The translations under genes were made by a program, and so were the position numbers. The notes below the pieces were generated by a model that worked only from the letters and a program-made list of their open reading frames with translations, had not been told where the DNA came from and did not search any database. Positions 39,078 to 48,244 of a stretch of DNA of 64,000 bases are shown here, piece after piece. Source of the stretch: an uncultured Aquimarina sp. (GTDB lineage: Bacteria > Bacteroidota > Bacteroidia > Flavobacteriales > Flavobacteriaceae); NCBI GenBank assembly GCA_947498785.1, contig CANMLS010000028.1, forward strand, positions 1 through 64,000, written 5' to 3'. Position 1 is the stretch's first letter, and each line of letters begins with the position of its first letter.

Positions 39078-39668
39078 ATGAAAAAAATTGGTTTGAACAT
39101 ATTTATAGGACTATTAACTGTAGTATCATTAAATGCTCAAAAAGCAGTACAAAATAATAATAAGGAAAATACATTTATACCTAAGAATATAATTAAAGTA
39201 TTTCCTTTGAATGCATTGATTGGTGAAATTGGAGTTGGGTATGAACGCGTTATTAAACCCAAAACTTCGTTAAACTTTACCTTGATTCAGGAATTTGATA
39301 AGGAAGAGTTTTTTAATACTGTATCTGTAAGATATTACACTGTTTTTGTTGAAGCGGAGCTAAAACTCTATTTATCAAAACACAAAAAAGCTCCCGAAGG
39401 CTGGTTTGTAAGTGGAGGTTTGTTAGGAGAGTGTAATTATAGTGAGTATAAAAGTAGAATTAATGATCAAAGTGTAGATTTAGAACGTTTTCAGGTAGGA
39501 GGTTCTGGTAAAACAGGATATCAATGGGTGTTTGAGAAAGCGCTAAAAGGGCTAACTATAGAAGTAGCTGGAGGTATAGAGTACAGAACCGTTGCAAATA
39601 TGTTTGGTAGAGCATTTTCAGATGGATTTGATCCTGTTTTAAACTTTACAGTGGGATATTCATGGTAA
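39078..39668 (+). CDS. Outer membrane beta-barrel protein of unknown function
   Basis: Signal peptide; IKVFPLNALIGEIGVGYERVIKPKTSLNFTL ... TVGYSW. Confidence 0.65.
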   Translation: MKKIGLNIFIGLLTVVSLNAQKAVQNNNKENTFIPKNIIKVFPLNALIGEIGVGYERVIKPKTSLNFTLIQEFDKEEFFNTVSVRYYTVFVEAELKLYLSKHKKAPEGWFVSGGLLGECNYSEYKSRINDQSVDLERFQVGGSGKTGYQWVFEKALKGLTIEVAGGIEYRTVANMFGRAFSDGFDPVLNFTVGYSW

Positions 39669-39912: not shown

Positions 39913-40431
39913 ATGCCAGAGAAAACAATTAGTGTTTGTGAAGAAAAAATATACGAACAATTATACCGTGAGCATGCAGAAAAAATATGTTACTATCTCT
40001 ATTATAAATATGGTGATATGGAAAAAGCACAAGATATAGTACAGGATAGTTTTGCCAAATTATGGATTAATTGCTCAAAGGTACTTTTTGGAGCAGCCAA
40101 AGGCTTTCTTTATAAAATTGCTAATAATGCTTCGATCAATGCTATTGTGCATCAAAAGACAGTGTTAAAATATCAGAAGATAGAACAAAAAACATATACC
40201 AATGAATCGCCAGAATTTCAGATGGAAGAAAAAGAATTCATGCATCGTTTAAATATGGCTATTTCTGGTTTAAAAGAAGGACAGCGTGAGGTTTTTCTTT
40301 TGAATAGAATCGAAAAGAAAACATACAGAGAGATTGCAGAAATGTTGGGAATCTCTGTTAAATCTGTAGAAAAAAGAATGCATCTGGCATTAATTATTTT
40401 AAGAAAAAAAATAAACACACCAAATCTGTAA
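39913..40431 (+). CDS. ECF RNA polymerase sigma-70 factor (FecI-like)
   Basis: LYREHAEKICYYLYYKYGDMEKAQDIVQDSFAKLW; REVFLLNRIEKKTYREIAEMLGISVKSVEKRMHLAL. Confidence 0.93.
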   Translation: MPEKTISVCEEKIYEQLYREHAEKICYYLYYKYGDMEKAQDIVQDSFAKLWINCSKVLFGAAKGFLYKIANNASINAIVHQKTVLKYQKIEQKTYTNESPEFQMEEKEFMHRLNMAISGLKEGQREVFLLNRIEKKTYREIAEMLGISVKSVEKRMHLALIILRKKINTPNL

Positions 40432-40434
40432 AAG

Positions 40435-40593
40435 ATGAATTTTTTAGATCAATATTATCAAAATGAATTTTTGGCCAAGTGGATATATGGTGAACTTACA
40501 ACAAAAGAACTTAATTCGTTCGTTAATTCAACCTTATATAAGAATTTAGTATTTTCGACCTTATCCAAAAATGACTCTATAAAAGAAAGCTAA
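40435..40593 (+). CDS. 52-aa small protein resembling the N-terminal anti-sigma segment of FecR
   Basis: MNFLDQYYQNEFLAKWIYGELTTKELNSFVNSTLYKNLVFSTLSKNDSIKES; FLxKWxxGxLxxxExxxFxNSxxY shared with the next gene (FLGKWLSGDLSNEEHKAFENSKDY). Confidence 0.6.
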   Translation: MNFLDQYYQNEFLAKWIYGELTTKELNSFVNSTLYKNLVFSTLSKNDSIKES

Positions 40594-40603
40594 TAAAAGT
40601 GAT

Positions 40604-41512
40604 ATGAATAAAGATAATTTTTTAGGAAAATGGTTATCTGGAGACCTTTCTAATGAGGAACATAAAGCTTTTGAGAATTCAAAAGACTATTTGGCATATA
40701 AAGATATATTAAAAGGAGTAGAAAGATTTGAAAGACCTGTTTTTGACATAGAAAAAGGTTTAAAAGAGCAAAAAATCTACAATGTTTCTTATAAAGCATC
40801 CAAAACGTCAAAAAAGATTGCACTTAGAATATGGATGTACAGTGCGGCAGCGGTAGTTTTGATTATTATTGGATTGAAAACCATGTTTTTTCAAGATATC
40901 ACAATACGTACTAAAATGGCGCAAATCCAAACAGTAACACTACCTGATAATTCTGTAGTGACTCTAAATGCAGGTTCTTCTTTAACATATGATAAAGATT
41001 CTTTTATAGAAGATAGAGAGCTTCGGTTAAATGGAGAAGCTTTTTTTGATGTAAGTAATGGGTCTACGTTTACAGTGAGTACTAAAAATGGGAAGATTAC
41101 CGTTTTGGGGACCGAATTTGACGTATATTCTAGAAATCAAAAATTAGAAGTACATTGTTTCGAAGGTAAAGTGAGTGTTGAGAAAGATGATAATAAGGTG
41201 ATTCTTACTCAGGGAAAAGGTACTAAGTATAATGAAAACGACAGTTTATCTTTATTTGAAGTAACAAAACCAAAACCAGATTGGTTAGATGGTAAAAGTT
41301 ATTTTCATGAGGTGCCTCTTGAGCAACTTATAAAAGAATTAGAAAGACAGTATGACATTAAAATTAATGTTGGAAGCGTAGATGTAAAAAGAATATTTAC
41401 AGGTTTCTTTAATCATGATGATCTAGAAACCGCGCTGCGAACTAGTTTTAACCCTATGAATATTAGTTATACATTTGAAGGAGAAAAAATTATAGTCCTA
41501 AGAAATAAGTGA
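40604..41512 (+). CDS. FecR family anti-sigma factor
   Basis: Single TM; QTVTLPDNSVVTLNAGSSLTYDKDSFIEDRELRLNGEAFFDV; ITVLGTEFDVYSRNQKLEVHCFEGKVSV. Confidence 0.95.
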   Translation: MNKDNFLGKWLSGDLSNEEHKAFENSKDYLAYKDILKGVERFERPVFDIEKGLKEQKIYNVSYKASKTSKKIALRIWMYSAAAVVLIIIGLKTMFFQDITIRTKMAQIQTVTLPDNSVVTLNAGSSLTYDKDSFIEDRELRLNGEAFFDVSNGSTFTVSTKNGKITVLGTEFDVYSRNQKLEVHCFEGKVSVEKDDNKVILTQGKGTKYNENDSLSLFEVTKPKPDWLDGKSYFHEVPLEQLIKELERQYDIKINVGSVDVKRIFTGFFNHDDLETALRTSFNPMNISYTFEGEKIIVLRNK

Positions 41513-44127
41513 TACGTTTTGAGTTCGTTGTATTATTAATATGTTTTTGGAGTATGTCTAGTTATTCTCAGCAAATAGACATTACTGAAAATGAATCTAT
41601 ATCTAATATTCTAGAAACGTTTACAAAACAACATCAATTTAGATTTTCGTATGATGTCGATGCTATCAAGAATATAAAATTAAAAATTGATTCAGGCTCA
41701 ATCTCCATTGATTCATTATTAAAAGAAATAAAAGAGCAAACACCATTTTTATTACAAAAGGTTGACGATGGTGGTTATATTTTAATAAAAAATGATGATA
41801 CAATAGAAATATGTGGTTTTGTAATTGATTCAGTATCTACTTTTGAACTTACTCAAGCAAACATTATAAACGATAATGATGTCATTCAACTTACAGATGA
41901 ACAGGGTTATTTTAAATTACAATTGAGACCAAAAGATTCAATTTCTATATCGCATTTAGGATACAATACAAGGACAATTAAAGCCTCAGAATTCTCAGGC
42001 TCGAGTTGTGATACGATTAGGTTATATCCAGAAGTTCAAAATTTAAGTCAAGTAATAATTAATGAATACCTTACAACAGGTGTCCAAAAAAATAAAGATG
42101 CTTCTATTAATGTATCCACCAAAAAACTTAGAATTCTCCCAGGGCTTGTAGAACCAGATGTTCTGCAGAGTTTACAATTATTACCAGGAGTAAATAGTCC
42201 AACAGAAGATCCTTCTGGATTATATATTAGGGGAGGAACTCCAGATCAAAATCTGATACTCTGGGATGGTATAAAGATGTATCATAATGGTCATTTTTTT
42301 AATCAAATATCAACTTTTAATCCCTACATAGTCAAAAATGTAAAGGTATATCGAGGAGGGACCAGTGTACGATATGGAGATCGTATTTCTGGAGCAGTGA
42401 TTATAGAGTCTGATGATGATCTGACTAAAAAATTTAAAATAGGAGGAGGGGTAAACTTTACTCACGCTGATGTTTTTGTTAAAGTTCCTTTGTCAGAAAA
42501 AATAGGCGTGATGGCAGCTTTCCGAAGATCTACTACTGATCTGTATAGAAATATAGCATATAACAATTTGGTTCGAAAAGTCTTTCAAAATACTAGAGCA
42601 GATATTCCAAATAGTAATGTACAAGAAACCTTAGAAAAAGAATCTAGAGAAGATGATTTTTCCTTTTCTGATACAAATATTAAACTTGTATGGTATCCAG
42701 ATAAACAAAATACAATAAAATTTAGCGGCATATTTGCAGAAAACAGATTGGATAATATTAGAAATATAACGGATACTATTAATTCTTATGGTCGTATCAG
42801 TGATATTTTAAAGCTTAGAAACTTAGGAGCCAGTCTAAACTGGAGAAGAGAATATTCTAACCATATCACCCAGAGAACAAATGTTTATTTTTCATCATAC
42901 GATACTCGATATAAGATCATAGGAAATATTACAAATGGAACATTAAATATTGATGAAAATAATCAAGTAAAAGATATAGGAGCAGAGTACGCATTAGATA
43001 TTTTGCTGACTCCAAAACAAACGCTAGGTGTTGGATATCAGTTTGTTTATAATGAGGCAAATTATATATTAAACGAAACGTTTACTGGGGATATTGGAGA
43101 AGAATTTGACGATAGAGTTAAAGGTACAGGAAATAACCATACTTTATTTTCTGAATATACTTATAAATCCAGAAAATTACATATGAATTTTGGATTTAGA
43201 GGTTCTTATTTAGGTAACACAGAGCAATTTTTTATAGAACCACGTATGTTTTCTTCTTTAAAAGTGTTAAAAAACCTTAGACTTACTACTTCAGCAGAAT
43301 TAAAAAATCAGCAACTTAACCGCTTGGTTACATTTGGCAGTATTTATAACCAAATTGAAAGTTTACCAGTTGCTGATAATGTATGGATTCTTTCTGGAAC
43401 AATGGAAAATGGTGAACCTGTTTTTATTCCTGTAATAAAAAGTATGCAATTTACTTTTGGATCGTTATATACTTTTAAAGGATGGAATTTTGATTTAGAA
43501 GCCTACTATAAAAAGCTAACTGATATTACATCTATAAATAATTTTATTTTAGATGTTGCTTCTCTGGATACTGGAAATGCTTTTGAAATAGGAAAAGAAG
43601 AACGTATCGGTTTTGATTTTTTACTAAAGAAGAGAATTCAGAATTATAGATTCTGGATTGGATATTCATTAAGTAAAGCTCTAGTTACTTTTCCCAGTAT
43701 ACAGCAAAATGCTTTTTCAGGAAATTTTGATCAACGTCATGTATTTAATATCTCCCAAACATTAAAAGTTAATAATTTTGAGTTCGCACTTGGATGGAAT
43801 TACGCTACAGGAAGACCTTTAACAAGACTCTTAAGAGATGTAGATAATGTAGCAGATGGTATTAGGATAGATCCAAAAGGAATCAATTCTAGTAGATTTA
43901 AGGATTATCATAGACTCGATGCTTCTGCGGTATATAGATTCAATTTTAATGCCAAAAAACCGTGGGGAGGAATGATTGGATTCTCTATTCGTAATATTTA
44001 TAATAGAAAAAATACGATTACTCAAGGACTTTCTCAAGGAGAGGATGAAAATGGATTTTTTATAAAAAGTTTCGAAAATAAATCATTACAACTTACACCA
44101 GATGTAGTTATCCGTTTTAATTTTTAA
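41509..44127 (+). CDS. STN-domain TonB-dependent receptor (FecA-like)
   Basis: STN-like N-terminus ISNILETFTKQHQFRFSYDVDAI; plug LPGLVEPDVLQSLQLLPGVNSPTEDPSGLYIRGGTPDQNLILWDG; GTG start overlapping the fecR stop (GTGA). Confidence 0.93.
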   Translation: MIRFEFVVLLICFWSMSSYSQQIDITENESISNILETFTKQHQFRFSYDVDAIKNIKLKIDSGSISIDSLLKEIKEQTPFLLQKVDDGGYILIKNDDTIEICGFVIDSVSTFELTQANIINDNDVIQLTDEQGYFKLQLRPKDSISISHLGYNTRTIKASEFSGSSCDTIRLYPEVQNLSQVIINEYLTTGVQKNKDASINVSTKKLRILPGLVEPDVLQSLQLLPGVNSPTEDPSGLYIRGGTPDQNLILWDGIKMYHNGHFFNQISTFNPYIVKNVKVYRGGTSVRYGDRISGAVIIESDDDLTKKFKIGGGVNFTHADVFVKVPLSEKIGVMAAFRRSTTDLYRNIAYNNLVRKVFQNTRADIPNSNVQETLEKESREDDFSFSDTNIKLVWYPDKQNTIKFSGIFAENRLDNIRNITDTINSYGRISDILKLRNLGASLNWRREYSNHITQRTNVYFSSYDTRYKIIGNITNGTLNIDENNQVKDIGAEYALDILLTPKQTLGVGYQFVYNEANYILNETFTGDIGEEFDDRVKGTGNNHTLFSEYTYKSRKLHMNFGFRGSYLGNTEQFFIEPRMFSSLKVLKNLRLTTSAELKNQQLNRLVTFGSIYNQIESLPVADNVWILSGTMENGEPVFIPVIKSMQFTFGSLYTFKGWNFDLEAYYKKLTDITSINNFILDVASLDTGNAFEIGKEERIGFDFLLKKRIQNYRFWIGYSLSKALVTFPSIQQNAFSGNFDQRHVFNISQTLKVNNFEFALGWNYATGRPLTRLLRDVDNVADGIRIDPKGINSSRFKDYHRLDASAVYRFNFNAKKPWGGMIGFSIRNIYNRKNTITQGLSQGEDENGFFIKSFENKSLQLTPDVVIRFNF

Positions 44128-45007: not shown

Positions 45008-48000
45008 ATGAAAAATTTTTTAAGATTCTTGACTATTTTATGTCTAATTTATAGCTCATCATATGGGCAGTTGGATACGGATTATTTTAATTTTTTGAAA
45101 TCAAATACAGTAGCATCTGATAACTCTTTAGAATGGGTTCAATTTGGCCCTGGCATGTCTGGGTATTGCGAATTTTTTTGGTGTCACCCTACAGATCCCA
45201 ATACCATGCATATGAGCCCGGATATGTTTAACGCATACGGAAGTTTTGATGCAGGTGAATCTTGGCAAACTATTAAAGATTTTGATGGTCAGGATAGAAA
45301 TATGAGACGTACATATGATATTGAGTTTTCTAGACAAAATCCTAATTTGGGCTTTGCGATTGATGAAACAGGAGGTGTTTTTAAATCAATAGATAAAGGT
45401 AGAACTTGGAAGAAAACATTCTCGATAGGAAAAGCGCATTCTGAAATTGCCGTAGACCCATCGAATGATAACAATTGGTATATCGGAGCAGGATCTTGGT
45501 GGGATGTCAAAGGAACCCATAGAACTTTAGCTAATCAAAAGGCTAACCTTCGTAGTACAGCAATATCTGGACATATCTATAAAAGCACAGATAAAGGAAC
45601 TACATGGAGAAAAATAAGTAATGGATTGCCGTCTGCATTAAGTGTTGCTAAGATCATAGTTGATCCTAGAAATTCGAATAATATTATAATGGCTGCTAAT
45701 ACTGGTGTTTATCGCAGTACAGATAAAGGAGAGAGTTGGTCTCCAAGTAAAACAGGTTTAACAAACAACCTGCCAAAAGATATGTCATATTATTATGATG
45801 AAAGTCAAAACAAATTTGTTTTATATATAGTTGAACAAACAAATTATATTAAACAAGGAAATACTACTAGATCTAAAGGGGGAATCTTTAAAAGTACAGA
45901 TGGAGGGCAAAATTGGACTTCTATCACTGGTGATTTGGGCTTTGATTTAACAAAGGTTACAGATTATACAACCAGATCAAAGTATAAAAGAGCAGTTTCA
46001 AAATGGTTAAGTATTCCTTCAAATCGAGTTGGTAATTTTCCAACTCATACAATTCCAACATTTCATAAAATTAGAGTAAATCCAAAAAATCCAGATGAGA
46101 TATACCTTTCTCATAATGTAAAGCATGATTTTTCTTTTGGTCCAGGTGATGTTTGGAAAACAGAAAACGGAGGAGTAACATGGTTTCCGTGTGCAAGAAC
46201 AGGGAAATATTGGAAAAACGGTCAAGATAGAGACTACTGGGAGAGTAGAGGTATTCCAACAGGTATGAATACTACTTTTGCTCATTTGCAGCATGAAATG
46301 GAACAATCAGCTGGGTACTCTGGATGTAGATTTATTGAGATCAATTCAATGGGCGAAATGTATGCAAGTATTGAACAACAAGTCTTAAAGTCGTCTGACG
46401 GAGGAAGAAACTGGAAACAAATAGATGATTATGAGACCGCCACTGGTAGTAAAGGATGGGTAGGAAGAGGAGGAAGTAATTTACCAGGAAGGTATATTTT
46501 ATTAGAAACAGGTGTTCCGGATAAAAAAATGTTTTGCAGTGGAGAGCATGGTTTATGGGAATCAGCTCCTTTAAAAGATCATCCAAACCCTAATGCAGTA
46601 GCTGTAAAGCAAATAGAAGGACAAGTTAATGAACCTAATGCAGCTACATCTATAGGTTATGTTGCCGTACATCCTCAAAATCCAAATATTCTATATACTC
46701 TTCAATTTAGGCAAGATCATAGGGATAATTTTCGTAGATCTATCGATGGAGGTATGACTTGGGAAAATATTTCAACTCCAATAAATCACCCAGATACCAA
46801 TTTATCTGGAGAGAGAATATTTTCATACTCCATATTAATAGACCCGATTACTCCTGAAAACATTTATTTCTGTGTAATTAGAGATGCCCCTGCAGAGGTA
46901 AATAGCTCGATTCCTGCGGGAAATTTTAATAATTTTGGTGTTTATAAAAGTACAAATGGAGGGTTTGATTGGCGAATCATGAACCAGGGTTTTCCAGCAG
47001 GAGCAAGCATTCGCAGGTTAAAAATGCACCCAACAGAAAGCTCAGTTATATACGCTGCTTCTAATTGGAGTTCCAAAAATAGAGTTGCGGGAGGGTTGTA
47101 TAAAACAATTAATAAAGCAGTTTCCTGGACCAAAGTAAATATTCCATCAGTTATTAAATCGGTCAATAATGTACATATTGATAAAACAACAAATGATATT
47201 TATATTTCTTGTGGTAGAAAGACAGGTAGCAATGGCGAAGGAGGAGTCTGGAGAAGTAAAGACGAAGGAGCTTCTTGGCAAAAAATATTTGACTTGCCTT
47301 ATGTTTGGCAGACAGAAACATCACCAATTAATCCAGACATAATTATCGTAAGTGTTCCATGGAATATACAAGCAAAAAATATGGGAGCTTTTTTATCAAG
47401 AAATGGAGGTGAAAATTGGATTAAAATCAATAAAAATTTAGCACACCCTGAAGCAATTACAGACATTCGTCCAGACAATAAAAATGAAAATGTGTTTTGG
47501 AGTGCAGGTTGGGGTAGTGGTTGGTATAAAGGAGTTTTTAAAGATATCACAACAAGTCAATTAATTGAAAATGGCGCCTATTATATTGGTTCAGTAACTT
47601 CTAATCAACGTTTACTATCTAGAGAACTAGAGTCGCACAGTGCAAGAATGACTAATCCAGGAAATTATAATGATCAACGATGGGTCTTTACCCATCTCGA
47701 TGATAATATATATAACATTAAGAATGAAAGAACAAATCGATACCTTGAGGTTTCTTTGGCAAACTGCGGTAATGGAAAAGATGTAGGAACATTGACCTCT
47801 GGAGAATCAAATCATCAAAAATGGAAAGTTATCAAAAATGGTTCAAATACATATTCATTTAAACCATTACATTGTCAAAGAGTTGCATTAGATAGGGCGG
47901 GAGGAGCTTTGAATGCTAATGTTCAGACATGGGAGTACGCTTCAACAAATACTAATCAAAAATGGGAAATTGTTGCTGTCAACAGTTTTAAAACAAATAC

Positions 48001-48244
48001 TTCAAGTTTTAATACTCAAACTCAAAACGTCATAGAAGCATTTCCTAATCCATCCAAAAATAATATATCTATACGTGGAATTAGTTATGGTGATGAAATA
48101 AAAGTGTATACACTATTAGGAGCATTGGTCATCAGTAAAATAGCCAAAGAGGGAGAAGAAAGTTTAGATGTTTCTTGTTTAGAATCAGGACCATACTTAC
48201 TATCAGTGTCAGGAAAAGATAAAATCAAATTTATAAAAGAATAA
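45008..48244 (+). CDS. Secreted BNR/Asp-box beta-propeller protein with ricin-type lectin domain and T9SS type A sorting domain
   Basis: About 11 Asp-box-like motifs (STDKGTTW, STDKGESW, STDGGQNW, SSDGGRNW, SIDGGMTW, STNGGFDW, SKDEGASW); ricin-like YNIKNERTNRYLEV...NQKWEIV; C-terminal VIEAFPNPSKNNISI...PYLLSVSGKDKIKFIKE. Confidence 0.87.
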   Translation: MKNFLRFLTILCLIYSSSYGQLDTDYFNFLKSNTVASDNSLEWVQFGPGMSGYCEFFWCHPTDPNTMHMSPDMFNAYGSFDAGESWQTIKDFDGQDRNMRRTYDIEFSRQNPNLGFAIDETGGVFKSIDKGRTWKKTFSIGKAHSEIAVDPSNDNNWYIGAGSWWDVKGTHRTLANQKANLRSTAISGHIYKSTDKGTTWRKISNGLPSALSVAKIIVDPRNSNNIIMAANTGVYRSTDKGESWSPSKTGLTNNLPKDMSYYYDESQNKFVLYIVEQTNYIKQGNTTRSKGGIFKSTDGGQNWTSITGDLGFDLTKVTDYTTRSKYKRAVSKWLSIPSNRVGNFPTHTIPTFHKIRVNPKNPDEIYLSHNVKHDFSFGPGDVWKTENGGVTWFPCARTGKYWKNGQDRDYWESRGIPTGMNTTFAHLQHEMEQSAGYSGCRFIEINSMGEMYASIEQQVLKSSDGGRNWKQIDDYETATGSKGWVGRGGSNLPGRYILLETGVPDKKMFCSGEHGLWESAPLKDHPNPNAVAVKQIEGQVNEPNAATSIGYVAVHPQNPNILYTLQFRQDHRDNFRRSIDGGMTWENISTPINHPDTNLSGERIFSYSILIDPITPENIYFCVIRDAPAEVNSSIPAGNFNNFGVYKSTNGGFDWRIMNQGFPAGASIRRLKMHPTESSVIYAASNWSSKNRVAGGLYKTINKAVSWTKVNIPSVIKSVNNVHIDKTTNDIYISCGRKTGSNGEGGVWRSKDEGASWQKIFDLPYVWQTETSPINPDIIIVSVPWNIQAKNMGAFLSRNGGENWIKINKNLAHPEAITDIRPDNKNENVFWSAGWGSGWYKGVFKDITTSQLIENGAYYIGSVTSNQRLLSRELESHSARMTNPGNYNDQRWVFTHLDDNIYNIKNERTNRYLEVSLANCGNGKDVGTLTSGESNHQKWKVIKNGSNTYSFKPLHCQRVALDRAGGALNANVQTWEYASTNTNQKWEIVAVNSFKTNTSSFNTQTQNVIEAFPNPSKNNISIRGISYGDEIKVYTLLGALVISKIAKEGEESLDVSCLESGPYLLSVSGKDKIKFIKE

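Follow-up and report, generated by a model that had tools for sequence, protein, structure and literature searches.

A separate, conserved gene for a FecR-type sigma-binding head between an ECF sigma factor gene and fecR in Aquimarina

In the marine bacterium Aquimarina, a conserved gene of its own encodes a homolog of the FecR sigma-binding head. The window (the whole stretch of DNA that was analyzed, 64,000 nucleotides from an uncultured Aquimarina sp.) contains an open reading frame for a protein of 52 aa at positions 40435-40593 of the forward strand. This ORF is a real protein-coding gene under purifying selection. The original prediction had proposed a stand-alone, soluble FecR sigma-binding domain encoded near a sigma factor and FecR; its homology, the lack of a transmembrane segment, and the position of the gene support this proposal. 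A literature search, scant on subscription journals, found no earlier description of a stand-alone FecR-head gene.

The gene upstream of the small ORF (39913-40431, forward strand) encodes a FecI-like, TIGR02985-like ECF sigma factor of 172 aa, the presumed partner of the 52-aa protein. This sigma factor had Pfam matches to Sigma70_r4_2 (1.3e-15) and Sigma70_r2 (1e-8), and an NCBIfam match to Sig70_bacteroi1 (1.8e-35) that is slightly below the family cut-off; its predicted model resembles solved ECF sigma structures. As had been predicted, the small ORF extends from an ATG at 40435 to a stop codon at 40591-40593, beginning 3 bp from the sigma stop codon (40429-40431) and ending 10 bp before the ATG of fecR (40604). 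The FecR sigma regulator is encoded at 40604-41512 on the same strand (302 aa; Pfam PF04773, 1.2e-20, and PF16344, 2.6e-8), and consists of the N-terminal sigma-binding domain, a membrane helix, and periplasmic FecR and FecR_C domains. The fecR gene overlaps by 4 bp with the gene for a TonB-dependent receptor (41509-44127, forward strand; 872 aa; Pfam Plug, 7.8e-14), presumably the signal receptor of the circuit.

Two other genes were noted in the vicinity. Upstream of the sigma gene, a 196-aa protein with a signal-like start (39078-39668) may be part of the locus; similar genes are also located upstream of the sigma gene in loci L065, L068, L105, L106, and L108. At L068, the encoded protein matches DUF3575, though below the threshold (E = 2.7e-4). 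Downstream of the receptor gene, a protein of 1078 aa (45008-48244) contains Sortilin/BNR repeats and a ricin-B-like lectin domain, and ends in a type IX secretion sorting tail; it could share the control of the receptor operon.

Stand-alone homologs of the small protein, 43-54 aa in length, number 16 including the window copy, and every one of them is encoded directly between the genes for an ECF sigma factor and FecR. In the 69 genomes of the genus that were searched, 11 besides the window genome carry the small gene between the orthologous sigma gene and fecR; one of the genomes, G048, has a second copy adjoining a paralogous sigma gene. Three more carriers (an uncultured Aquimarina, a record named 'Algibacter', and a Flavobacteriaceae isolate) were added through a scan of named genomes. 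Carriers within the genus include Aquimarina algiphila, A. spongiae, and A. algicola. A frame or start that is not conserved in relatives would have refuted the original prediction; both are conserved in the homologous ORFs: the frame is intact in 16 of 16 copies, and M1, F12, L13, W16, F29, S32, Y35, L38, and V39 are invariant in their alignment.

The dN/dS ratios, likewise suggested as a check, were 0.05-0.13 in close pairs (0.12 for G000-G006, 0.13 for G048-G061, and 0.05 for G058-G044). Differences between the copies of G058 and G044 number 2, 3, and 18 at the first, second, and third codon positions, respectively. The conserved frame, these ratios, and the codon-position pattern therefore indicate a protein under purifying selection. 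When all pairs are taken together, many of them near synonymous saturation, the median dN/dS was 0.37 for the small gene, compared to 0.23 for FecR and 0.08 for sigma. The remaining two forward frames contain several stop codons each in all copies. At the local base composition, an open frame of 42 codons is expected by chance with p ~0.026 per locus; since a homologous ORF is found at the equivalent place in 16 loci, the small ORF is not a chance occurrence.

The original prediction had also pointed out a similarity to the FecR N-terminus. The single 52-aa sequence matched the FecR of the window with E = 0.08 only; a profile of the small-protein family matched it with 1.8e-5, and matched other Flavobacteriaceae FecR N-termini with values as low as 2e-10. 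A profile-profile comparison between the small proteins and FecR N-termini gave E = 1.8e-10, with a probability of 96.9, across 38 columns. When the family profile was run against 400 genomes of the same family, matches were obtained in 153; almost all of the matches lie at the beginning of ~300-aa frames, and all ten of the frames that were sampled carry Pfam FecR. The ungapped alignment that had been made by eye was correct in substance; however, a three-residue gap is needed ahead of the YKxLV motif of the small protein, which pairs with YKDIL in FecR, and it is these three residues that are missing. The 52-aa protein is not a full FecR-type regulator, as it has neither a membrane stretch nor the Pfam FecR and FecR_C domains. 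It had no match in Pfam, where only stray single-member matches were obtained with other copies, and no matching chain in the PDB. BlpC was the only NCBIfam match, and is due to chance (E = 0.03).

In a phylogeny built on the 28-residue core, the 16 small proteins are separated from 34 FecR N-termini by a single branch with support of 100/100; the small number of columns leaves the finer branching order unresolved. The identity of the small proteins is 0.34 to the FecR of their own locus, 0.33 to FecRs of other loci, and 0.60 among themselves. Because the small proteins form one clade and the FecR from the same locus is no closer than other FecRs, we infer from these comparisons that the family is the product of a single old duplication of the FecR head. 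Two ways in which the ORF might belong to a neighboring gene were rejected. Stop codon readthrough, creating a fusion to sigma, does not fit a small ORF that is in frame with the sigma gene at some loci and out of frame at others (the offsets from sigma are 3, 5, 9, 11, 12, 80, and 86). Fusion to FecR through a frameshift was dismissed as well: of 15 loci examined, 13 have a FecR frame that is closed upstream of the core.

AlphaFold2 was run on the sigma factor and the small protein as a single chain, with Q in place of the sigma stop codon. In this model, the small protein has three short helices (aa 11-17, 23-30, and 33-39) followed by a disordered tail. The predicted helix 1 (EFLAKWI, 40465-40485, forward strand) contains the invariant F12, L13, and W16; helix 2 (TKELNSFV, 40501-40524, forward strand) contains F29; and the short helix 3 (TLYKNLV, 40531-40551, forward strand) contains Y35, L38, and V39. 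The pTM of the fused model is low (0.38), and the model supplies no evidence on an interface. For the N-terminus of the window FecR, four helices (aa 6-66) were predicted with good confidence. As modeled, the small protein corresponds to FecR helices 1-3, of which the third is shorter, and has no membrane helix or periplasmic part; it falls short of the full four-helix domain in that helix 4 is absent. A Foldseek search of the FecR N-terminal model against the PDB returned no match, so the fold of the FecR head is not tied to the solved PupR domain.

The variable tail of the small gene runs into the translation start region of fecR (40558-40603, forward strand). In 12 of 16 loci, exactly 35 nt separate the end of the conserved core from the fecR start, even though the stop codon shifts its position; three members of one clade have distances of 29, 29, and 32 nt. 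The distance in the window is 46 nt, because the upstream ATG that is used in G006 is missing and fecR starts further down. In seven loci, the small gene, through its stop codon, shares 1 or 4 nt with the ATG of fecR. These distances suggest that the 3' end of the small gene also serves as the translation start region of fecR. Coupling of fecR translation is a possible role of the small gene; it would be a secondary role, or else a weaker rival explanation, since it leaves the conserved amino acids unexplained.

The small gene is known from Aquimarina and two near relatives. In the phylogeny of sigma and FecR from 34 loci, 16 with the small gene and 18 without it, well-supported branches force at least four changes. 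Within the ortholog clade, 16 loci lack the small gene. Three genomes without the gene (G036, G045, and G063) form a group that is nested within the carriers, and their lack of the gene is therefore a loss. The small gene is dispensable and was lost several times, which implies that it modulates the circuit rather than running it. At the loci of these three genomes (L039, L038, and L037, respectively), the sigma stop codon and the fecR start are 3 nt apart; this equals the spacing between sigma and the small gene in relatives, as if a deletion had joined both starts. Most gaps of non-carriers, when searched for remnants of the gene, scored no better than shuffled sequences; the scores for G015 and G019 were marginal (equaled by 1 and 3 of 100 shuffles, respectively). 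A frame of 21 codons in G004 has an ending that resembles the small gene, yet is not convincing as a remnant.

Outside this group, ~800 further Bacteroidota genomes yielded no convincing stand-alone copy. They include samples of the phylum and of the order, 398 genomes each, which overlap mutually and with the 400-genome family sample. A diverged copy could escape these searches, since at most 17 candidates per genome are scored and the cut-off of the order search was strict (1e-9). Phylum matches in G618 and G801 were attributed to chance, as they have no sigma or fecR context, and a match in G691 had no ORF worth reporting. Viral contigs contained no copy of the small gene.

With modest confidence, we consider the best explanation to be that the small protein is a soluble, signal-independent mini-regulator that binds sigma in competition with FecR. 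Its size is close to that of the FecR fragment that proteolysis has to free in E. coli before the system turns on, and it therefore probably tunes the sigma/FecR switch from inside the cell. The small gene shares a tight cluster with sigma and fecR, and co-production of the three proteins is probable. In the cytoplasm, the small protein would attach to its co-encoded ECF sigma factor at region 4; competition with membrane-bound FecR would follow, and a share of the sigma pool would be kept off the membrane, free of the outer-membrane signal. It may thus be described as a genetically encoded counterpart of the ~50-residue fragment that Prc and RseP produce from E. coli FecR. The homology to the FecR head, the purifying selection, and the invariant hydrophobic and aromatic core favor this explanation, as does the location of the gene, which is always between sigma and fecR, even beside the paralogous sigma of G048. 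The correspondence to E. coli FecR 9-59 and the predicted helix content (1-3 but not 4) also favor it. The repeated loss, which shows that the small gene is not required, counts against it, as does the finding that equivalent heads, FpvR 1-67 and that of Leptospira, inhibit. As to the direction of the effect, our best guess slightly favors a weak pro-sigma (stabilizing or activating) action, with additional anti-sigma braking nearly as likely. Tentatively, a dedicated gene may constitutively supply a soluble pro-sigma peptide, for which FecR-type signaling otherwise depends on regulated proteolysis; it may thereby bypass or bias the signal by gene dosage, and may be kept or lost between species to reset the basal expression of the receptor operon.

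Homology, position, and selection would fit equally well to a permanent cytoplasmic anti-sigma brake, not removable by FecR proteolysis, that sets the threshold for induction. The isolated FpvR head (1-67) inhibits both FpvI and PvdS (PMC9249621), and the FecR-like N-terminal domain of Leptospira alone is an anti-sigma factor in log phase (PMC13118517). However, the predicted helix 4 is missing from the small protein, and the roughly equivalent segment of E. coli FecR activates; we regard a brake of this kind as rather unlikely. That the small protein heterodimerizes with the FecR head, changing the grip of FecR on sigma rather than binding sigma itself, appears improbable, given that the binding role in this family is directed at sigma-4. 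In its favor are the homology of the small protein to the FecR head and the dimerization of the cytoplasmic domain of PupR, as reported in the title of Jensen 2015, which PMC7186176 cites.

A mainly translational role, in which the small ORF is translated to open or load the start of fecR and its peptide is of little importance, would account for the constant 35 nt between core and fecR despite the moving stop codon, and for the overlaps of stop codon and ATG. It seems very improbable in view of the selection on amino acids, the recognizable sigma-binding domain in the core, and the sister species in which fecR follows sigma after 3 nt without any small gene. The original prediction had also considered that the ORF might be left over from a tandem duplication of fecR. 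An origin from the FecR N-terminus and the dispensability implied by the 16 ortholog-clade loci without the gene agree with a functionless relic, but recent decay is contradicted by the old clade that the small proteins form, with its own distinct motif and its near-equal identity to own and other FecRs, and by the purifying selection in close pairs. The ORF is also open in every copy and was retained at both sigma copies of G048, and we give a relic hardly any credence.

FecI/FecR-type circuits are numerous in Bacteroidota, and regulatory genes of ~50 codons between longer genes can escape annotation. The effect of the FecR head, inhibition or activation, varies by system, and has so far been studied through artificial truncations. 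Here, evolution itself produced and kept a truncated FecR head, and the sister species without the gene are matched controls; pro-sigma and anti-sigma action are therefore directly testable in Bacteroidota.

A different rearrangement of the FecR head was observed in another genus of the same family. Two species (G069, locus L101:302-1846, and G846, locus L127) encode a 514-aa FecR in which four N-terminal sigma-binding domains, spaced 65 aa apart, stand in tandem ahead of one membrane and periplasmic part. Neighboring copies of the domain have 88-96% nucleotide identity, and the two species are 97% identical overall in this FecR; single-copy FecRs are the norm in the rest of the genus.

The closest known counterpart of the small protein is in E. 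coli, where FecR 1-59 activates FecI without a signal and 9-59 is the interacting part; the contact is with sigma-4, and conserved Leu and Trp residues in the segment are required (PMC9249621). The head is freed from the membrane by RseP (PMC8144685). FecR 9-59 is similar to the small protein in size and in the part of the head that it covers, matched by position within the domain and not through a tool alignment. Both have a conserved Leu/Trp core, and sigma-4 is the expected target. However, the E. coli fragment is a product of signal-triggered cleavage of full FecR by Prc and RseP, whereas the small protein has its own gene beside an intact fecR and would be made regardless of the signal. 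The cytoplasmic domains of FpvR, FoxR, FiuR, and PupR alone are likewise isolated heads that act on a cytoplasmic sigma factor, and in the case of FoxR and FiuR, the head of an inhibitor can activate (PMC9249621). These heads are laboratory constructs of 67-93 residues; in contrast, the small protein is natural, has ~50 residues, and is without helix 4. IutY of Pseudomonas putida is another case of rearranged sigma/regulator modules in cell-surface signaling; however, in IutY sigma is joined to the periplasmic part, whereas the Aquimarina locus splits off the head and retains a full FecR.
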